NCBI GenBank assembly: GCA_030833725.1
Contig: JAURGP010000021.1
Span: 1 to 34,771, forward strand
Direction: 5' to 3'
Source of the DNA: Candidatus Kapaibacterium sp.
GTDB taxonomy: Bacteria > Bacteroidota > Ignavibacteria > Kapaibacteriales > Kapaibacteriaceae
Length of the DNA: 34,771 bases
The notes under the pieces are model-generated. The model ran no database searches and was not told the DNA's origin. It saw only the letters and a list, made by a program, of their open reading frames with translations. Made by a program: the position numbers and the translations under genes. Shown in pieces: positions 27,479 to 28,360 of this stretch. Position 1 is the stretch's first letter, and each line of letters begins with the position of its first letter.

Positions 27479-27769
27479 TTATCGTGTATCCTGAGCTACG
27501 AACGGCAGTAGGGCCAGATGACGAGCGTACTTGATTGCACGCGTCAGTCGGCGTTGCTGCAGTGCCGTTACTCCCGTAATGCGACGAGGCAGGATTTTGC
27601 CCTGATCGTTCGTAAAACGGCCAAGGAACTTTGGATCCAGATAGTCAATCAAGCGCGACTGCTTCAGCGGATTGTTCCGCTTACGTGGCTGCGCCTTTTT
27701 CTGACGAAATGGCGAATTGATCGTGTTTGGGTTTTGCGACCGCATTGGTCCGCGCTGATTCATCATCAT
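27479..27769 (-). CDS. rpsR: 30S ribosomal protein S18
   Basis: Small-subunit protein that binds the platform with S6. It has 96 aa. Diagnostic stretches are [28 protein letters not shown] and [18 protein letters not shown]. An N-terminal extension rich in Asn, Pro and basic residues precedes the core. Three consecutive ATG codons (27769, 27766, 27763) could start it. The start is only 3-4 bases from an 11-bp tandem repeat that forms its entire upstream region, so translation initiation must use repeat sequence. No rpsF or rplI neighbours are seen, unlike the usual S6-S18-L9 cluster. Confidence 0.96.
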
Positions 27770-27772
27770 GAT

Positions 27773-27836
27773 GGTCTACTCGTGGTCTACTCGTGGTCTA
27801 CTCGTGGTCTACTCGTGGTCTACTCGTGGTCTGCTC
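27773..27836. repeat. 11-bp tandem repeat abutting the rpsR start
   Basis: Five exact copies of GGTCTACTCGT (plus strand) at 27773-27827, followed by a partial sixth copy with one change (GGTCTGCTC). On the rpsR strand the unit is ACGAGTAGACC. It occupies most of the 102-base interval between rpmE and rpsR. Eleven is not a multiple of three, so copy-number change would shift any reading frame across it. The GAG in each unit could serve as a weak Shine-Dalgarno sequence. Confidence 0.95.
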
Positions 27837-27871: not shown

Positions 27872-28099
27872 TTACTTCTTCGCACGCACGGCTTGCGTTT
27901 TCGCCATGCGCTTGTTGAAGCGGTCAACCCGACCGGCCGTATCCAACAGCATTTGCTTGCCGGTGTAGAACGGATGGGACTTGGAGTCGATCTCAAGAAC
28001 CATGCGCTCGCCACTGTAGCATGAACGCGTCTGGAAGGTGGTACCGTCAGTCATGACAACGTCGACGGTCTTGTACGCTGGGTGTATGCCTTTTTTCAT
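27872..28099 (-). CDS. rpmE: 50S ribosomal protein L31, cysteine-poor form
   Basis: 75-aa L31. It begins KKGIHPAYKTVDVVMTDGT and ends with HPFYTGKQMLLDTAGRVDRFNKR, the family signature. The paired cysteines that bind zinc in the C-plus type are absent; only one Cys remains (RSCYSG), so this is a zinc-independent (C-minus) form. The ATG at 28099 lies 3 bases after the stop of the 57-aa gene. rpsR follows after the tandem repeat. Confidence 0.94.
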   Translation of the reverse strand: MKKGIHPAYKTVDVVMTDGTTFQTRSCYSGERMVLEIDSKSHPFYTGKQMLLDTAGRVDRFNKRMAKTQAVRAKK

Positions 28100-28102
28100 C
28101 GC

Positions 28103-28276
28103 TTATCCGTTGAAATCCATTTTATCAAGTTGGCCAAGTTCGTCCACCTGGACGAACCGTTCCTTGAACTTCACCGTTCCGGTCTCACCACGGAAGCCGC
28201 GGATGACCTTCACGCTGATACGCGACGTGCCTGCTTTTTTCTTGCCCTTGTCGCCGAAGGTTTGCTGTTTAGCCAT
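28103..28276 (-). CDS. Small basic protein of unknown function, first gene of the rpmE-rpsR operon
   Basis: 57-residue ORF read by hand from the minus strand. It begins MAKQQTFGDKGKKKAG and continues with a beta-like stretch ISVKVIRGFRGETGTVKF and an acidic end. By count it has 13 Lys/Arg against 7 Asp/Glu, with the positive charge in the first 25 residues. It starts 29 bases after a good promoter, ends 3 bases before rpmE, and its size, charge and position resemble small ribosome-associated proteins. I do not recognise a named family; it is not L33 or L28, and it does not resemble DUF4295. A ribosomal or RNA-binding role is inferred only from context. Confidence 0.78.
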   Translation of the reverse strand: MAKQQTFGDKGKKKAGTSRISVKVIRGFRGETGTVKFKERFVQVDELGQLDKMDFNG

Positions 28277-28304: not shown

Positions 28305-28335
28305 CAAAGATACGGCCTTTGCTACTATTGGGCAA
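28305..28335 (-). promoter_or_regulatory. Promoter for the 57-aa protein-rpmE-rpsR operon
   Basis: On the minus strand, TTG (28333-28335) is followed after 20 bases by TATCTTTG (28305-28312). The spacing is the same as at the recJ promoter. It lies back to back with the aspartokinase promoter, whose TATCTTTG is identical. Confidence 0.72.
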
Positions 28336-28347
28336 GAGCCAAGGTGG

Positions 28348-28355
28348 TATCTTTG
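28348..28355 (+). promoter_or_regulatory. -7 box for the aspartokinase gene (leaderless candidate)
   Basis: TATCTTTG ends five bases before the ATG at 28361. A TTG at 28328-28330 is 17 bases upstream, a little close. No ribosome-binding site fits between box and ATG, so the mRNA is probably leaderless or nearly so. Confidence 0.62.
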
Positions 28356-28360
28356 TGATT

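Follow-up and report, generated by a model that had tools for sequence, protein, structure and literature searches.

Among solved ribosomes, the 50S ribosomal protein bL38 is seen as chain 4 of 7JIL ('50S ribosomal protein L38'), which we take to be the F. johnsoniae ribosome. The Bacteroidota DUF4295 protein L046 matches this chain at 6.9e-25 and also matches chain 15 of 9I5T, the 50S subunit of Porphyromonas gingivalis, at 2.4e-10. At the 50S subunit bL38 contacts uL6, uL14 and helices H95/H97, and Borrelia burgdorferi bL38 (bb0162) occupies a 50S place similar to that of F. johnsoniae bL38, according to PMC10618245. That paper also reports a displacement of 14 A, and there F. johnsoniae bL38, used as the query of a translated search, missed the Borrelia protein. 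Here we describe a 57-codon gene in a 34,771-nucleotide stretch of Candidatus Kapaibacterium sp. DNA (the window), which very probably encodes a divergent version of the 50S ribosomal protein bL38 that has no cysteine and is typical of its lineage.

The ORF lies on the minus strand (28103..28276), with its ATG at 28276 and its stop codon at 28103–28105. It is followed, after a gap of 3 bases, by the ATG of rpmE at 28099 (27872..28099, minus strand), whose product is a bL31 (TIGR00105, 4.1e-29) that lacks the zinc-binding pairs of Cys residues (C- form). The third gene, rpsR (27479..27769, minus strand), encodes bS18 (TIGR00165, 6.5e-21). An earlier note on this DNA had described a short basic ORF 3 bases ahead of rpmE, with ribosomal-protein genes behind it, and the coordinates and family matches agree with that description. 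The product has a pI of 10.09, with 13 K/R versus 7 D/E, and a net charge of +5 over residues 1–19. It contains no cysteine, and so the zinc-ribbon (C+) arrangement of CxxC before strand 1 and CxC/CxxC after strand 2 is absent. Like 7JIL bL38 and the DUF4295 (PF14128) proteins, it falls within 50–57 aa and has a MAK start, a basic N-tail and a predicted hairpin of two strands, with KVI..., a turn glycine (G) and F.E in the second strand. It likewise occurs once per genome, in the neighborhood of ribosomal-protein genes. It differs from them in its distinct MAKQQTFGDKxKKK N-terminus and in scoring below the Pfam cut-off. Downstream of the bS18 gene come tRNA-Gln, a ribose-phosphate diphosphokinase gene and an L25 gene, and upstream of the ORF is a divergently oriented gene, which from its sequence is presumably an aspartokinase gene. 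Most of the rpmE–rpsR gap is taken up by 5.9 tandem copies of the 11-base unit TGGTCTACTCG (27772–27836).

The 57-codon ORF is a genuine conserved gene under purifying selection. A protein search found it in 57 of 60 related genomes. Most of the related contigs that carry a name bear the label Candidatus Kapaibacterium, Ignavibacteria or Bacteroidetes. The 3 relatives without a match (G009, G011 and G053) had no bL31 match either, so that independent gene loss was rejected and the absences are probably assembly gaps, that is, a missing assembly stretch in each. Across 22 same-length genes, pN was lower than pS in 231/231 pairs, with synonymous sites near saturation in most of them (mean pS 0.69), and dN/dS ranged from 0.05 to 0.40 across the 12 least-diverged pairs listed.

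Upstream of the gene we found a Bacteroidota-type promoter motif, composed of the -7 element TATCTTTG (28305..28312, minus strand; 29–36 nt before the ATG) and the -33 element TTG (28333..28335, minus strand) 20 nt from it. The full arrangement, TTG-N20-TATCTTTG at 28335–28305, is one of only two such matches within the window. The sigma-ABfr consensus is given in PMC7366714 as TAnnTTTG at -7 and TTTG at about -33. The motif TTG-N19/20-TAnnTTTG was present upstream in 26 of 30 loci (L001–L030), its -7 part starting 36–63 nt before the ATG; the 26 loci are related and hence do not count as 26 independent events, and mononucleotide shuffles gave an expectation of 1.8 of 30 loci for the -7 part alone. 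By scan, no E. coli sigma-70 elements were found upstream of the ORF, and the sole match, at 28119–28146, falls within it; a promoter of that kind was dropped in favor of the Bacteroidota-type motif. This Bacteroidota-type site is probably the gene's own promoter, from which bL38, bL31 and bS18, in that order, would be co-transcribed as one operon. By eye, a second TATCTTTG was seen on the plus strand at 28340–28360, just ahead of the divergent gene; no TTG was seen at 19–20 nt from it, and it was rejected as a promoter of that gene.

The only Pfam match of the 57-aa protein was to DUF4295 (E 0.021, 15.1 bits), below the cut-off of 27 bits, and NCBIfam gave no match. Assignment to bL38 is by homology and not by the curated Pfam model. 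We compared the window clade (A2, 23 rows; A1, the same clade with one Balneolales row, 30 rows) with 15 DUF4295 proteins (A3), 19 intermediates drawn from other families in the phylum (A4) and a 37-row profile of all Cys-free types, DUF4295 rows among them (A5). PDB searches with the single 57-aa sequence and with A2 returned no match, and the direct hhalign comparison of A2 with A3 reached a probability of 38% (E 3.3e-4); the homology is for these reasons transitive. The intermediates linked the two ends, with 98.7% (E 2.8e-16) for A2 against A4 and 98.1% (E 9.3e-14) for A4 against A3, and 0/200 column shuffles reached the observed score in each of four comparisons. The A4–A3 similarity is flattered, because 18 of 19 A4 rows were, like A3, gathered through PF14128 matches, a bias that survives column shuffles. 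The A4–A2 similarity is free of this selection, and most of the shared N-terminal motif falls outside the PF14128-matched stretch. In PDB searches, the top match of A1 was the 9I5T DUF4295 protein (E 0.016); A4 without A3 rows matched 9I5T at 1.9e-6 and 7JIL at 0.013; and A5, which contains DUF4295 rows, matched them at 3.1e-13 and 3.4e-11, respectively. No chain named as Borrelia ribosome was among the listed PDB matches of the profiles. By profile comparison, then, the window protein is homologous to the solved bL38 (the 7JIL chain 4 family) through intermediates.

The AlphaFold2 model, built on A1 (mean pLDDT 80.7, pTM 0.48), comprises a beta-hairpin (20–29/35–44), a short helix (47–52) and a low-confidence basic N-tail, in keeping with the basic beta-strand protein originally predicted. 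Foldseek gave no significant match to the model (best E 0.94). VIA-align placed 9I5T chain 15 third, in the sequence register (Z 2.1, rmsd 2.5, 34/35 residues), behind two unrelated ribosome chains that scored as high or higher, and 7JIL was not among the matches listed. Of the solved relatives, the P. gingivalis chain is the best match by profile and also by in-register fold comparison, with 26% identity over the 34 aligned residues and a Z of only 2.1. The model agrees with bL38, which for so small a fold proves little. By analogy with solved bL38, the window protein would be incorporated into the ribosome with a corresponding site and contacts. Its hairpin would pack on the 50S subunit near uL6 and 23S helices H95/H97, beside the sarcin-ricin loop, its flexible Lys-rich N-terminal tail (the MAKQQTFGDKxKKK stretch) would grip rRNA, and the protein as a whole may stiffen the factor-binding side of the subunit.

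The operon partners of the bL38 family vary between lineages. Window-type genes had bL31 and bS18 adjacent in 45/45 loci (L001–L030, L116–L130), which come from 45 of the 57 matching genomes, and in L117 and L118 bS18 comes ahead of bL31. In contrast, genes of the DUF4295 type (L031–L060) stand in a bL28-bL33-ftsY context, with bL33 adjacent in 30/30 loci, bL28 in 28/30 and ftsY downstream in 30/30. The A4 intermediates share the DUF4295 place, being located behind bL33 in 12/19 loci and behind bL28-bL33 in 11/19; seven others (L110–L112, L114, L131, L132 and L134) had no such ribosomal neighbor, and neither had the Ignavibacteria-type loci L096–L101. In a second locus set, largely repeating the same genomes, the Balneolales locus L095 showed the bL28-bL33 context, L086 and L090 stop at a contig edge, and L085, L088 and L094 had neither the bL31-bS18 nor the bL28-bL33 context.

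Profile A5 matched 190 of 198 genomes of the phylum, with one match each, and the window genome holds a single family member without a second copy. Six of the 190 matches were weak and fell at the same place as a cysteine-bearing (Cys-form) profile or protein, and of the 8 genomes without a match, 7 had the Cys form and one (G235) had neither. By comparison, the Pfam cut-off for DUF4295 reaches 59 of 148 genomes, so that the annotation of many genomes of this group probably lacks one ribosomal protein. The intermediate sequences, their bL28-bL33 neighborhood, the single copy per genome and the compatible hairpin model together make it most likely that the sequence similarity reflects common descent, and that the 57-aa protein is a divergent branch of DUF4295/bL38 and not a new family. 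The protein had been described in the earlier note as unrecognised and as possibly a lineage-specific ribosomal or ribosome-associated protein. It is indeed passed over by the Pfam cut-off and by NCBIfam, and through bL38 homology a ribosomal role is supported. Lineage specificity, judged from genomes of Bacteroidota, applies to that phylum and not to this lineage. The family is one already characterized, however, and given the homology to DUF4295/bL38 the gene adds a new branch to a ribosomal protein that was already known.

In families that A5 missed or matched weakly, we found the Cys form, a protein of 63–65 aa with the same MAK.Q.FADK start and hairpin, in which CxxC precedes strand 1 and CKCNEK follows strand 2. 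A profile of this form (A6) matched A2 at E 5.9e-13, and still at 2.5e-8 once the N-terminal motif had been removed, with 0/100 shuffles reaching the score in each case. When A6 was run against the window translated in six frames (all 792 stretches of at least 25 residues), the ORF ranked first (6.9e-8; next 0.065); a PDB search with A6 gave no bL38 match. In 294 genomes of the class, A6 matched 212 and A5 206, together 277, and 75 genomes matched A6 at 1.6e-18 or better. CxxC...CxC was present in 30/30 fetched loci of the strongest A6 matches (L175–L204), and among 36 further proteins 22 had four cysteines and 14 had none or one. Sister families carry the C+ form in place of the C- form, and two families hold both: in f50, G281 reads CPKC...CSNC and G249, of almost the same length, has no cysteine, and in f15 both types are present. 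Family f42 (L169, L215–L217, L220–L223) retains one leftover cysteine (CPDT...VYES); in L169 this one-cysteine form lies downstream of plsX. Within the class of the window, C+ and C- families thus replace one another, and cysteine remnants or losses can be traced inside single families. As the family labels derive from genomes and not from the bL38 gene, the cysteines changed more than once.

The bL38 family resembles bL31, in which Cys pairs likewise bracket a hairpin and are kept in some lineages and lost elsewhere, and bL31 of the same genomes shows the C+/C- split. We compared both proteins in 30 genomes, which are few and related and one of which (G456) had no bL31 match. All 15 genomes that have the Cys form of bL38 encode a bL31 with both Cys pairs; of the 14 genomes in which bL38 is Cys-poor and bL31 was matched, 7 have these bL31 pairs and 7 lack them. 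The latter 7 include 6/6 genomes read from the window's order, in which the C- form of bL38 adjoins C- bL31. For these few, related genomes, the pattern would fit a loss of the zinc site first in bL38 and later in bL31. Zinc binding by the Cys form is putative, as suggested by its cysteine pattern, and membership in the ribosome would follow from homology and mutual replacement. In contrast to bL31, a C+/C- duality of bL38 was not found in the literature searched on bL38, DUF4295 and ribosomal-protein zinc ribbons (few subscription papers), in which the divergent bL38 form and the zinc-ribbon relatives were likewise unreported.

Other explanations for the ORF and its family have to be weighed against these data. 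A chance ORF could be suspected from its shortness and from a longer mechanical ORF that overlaps it on the opposite strand, but the chance of this is negligible given its conservation in 57/60 relatives, the excess of pS over pN in every pair and the conserved promoter motif. The protein might instead be a lineage-specific ribosome-associated or RNA-binding protein, for example a translational autoregulator of rpmE-rpsR, whose likeness to bL38 is that of short basic hairpins in general. The weak direct similarity to DUF4295 and a gene location unlike that in Bacteroidia speak for it. We nevertheless consider it unlikely, because graded intermediates with the same N-terminal motif occupy the bL28-bL33 place, a family member is present in almost all genomes of the phylum while the window genome has no second one, and the shuffle controls did not reproduce the similarity.

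The surroundings of the Cys form raise the further possibility that the family was ancestrally non-ribosomal, for instance a zinc-ribbon partner of the adjacently encoded GAF-GGDEF protein, and that recruitment to the ribosome took place only in some lineages, of which this one may not be part. The Cys form adjoins a GAF-GGDEF gene in 42/42 loci from 35 genomes (L141–L144, L161–L168, L175–L204), and bL28, bL31, bL33, bS18 and ftsY were absent within about 1.5 kb in 42/42. A gene that we take to be deoB-like (Pfam: Metalloenzyme) was found in 31/42 of these loci and a sigma-70 gene in 15/42. The window form is beside ribosomal genes in all 45 of its loci, however, and Cys and Cys-free forms were seen together in no genome compared (not every genome was read by eye), so that a non-ribosomal ancestry appears very improbable.

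With the gene read as bL38, the family includes zinc-ribbon forms and probably descends from them. On this evidence bL38 is probably, like bL31, a ribosomal protein that exists in a zinc-binding and a zinc-free version, that of the window being zinc-free. We also consider it likely that bL38 is a C+/C- ribosomal protein whose ancestor was a zinc-binding 50S protein, of which Bacteroidia, including F. johnsoniae, have only the cysteine-free descendant. With the widened profile, bL38 is recognized in nearly the whole phylum and no longer just in the part reached by the Pfam cut-off. The cysteine-bearing relatives give an indication of the origin of bL38, and they suggest that zinc-site loss shaped the part of the 50S subunit next to the sarcin-ricin loop.
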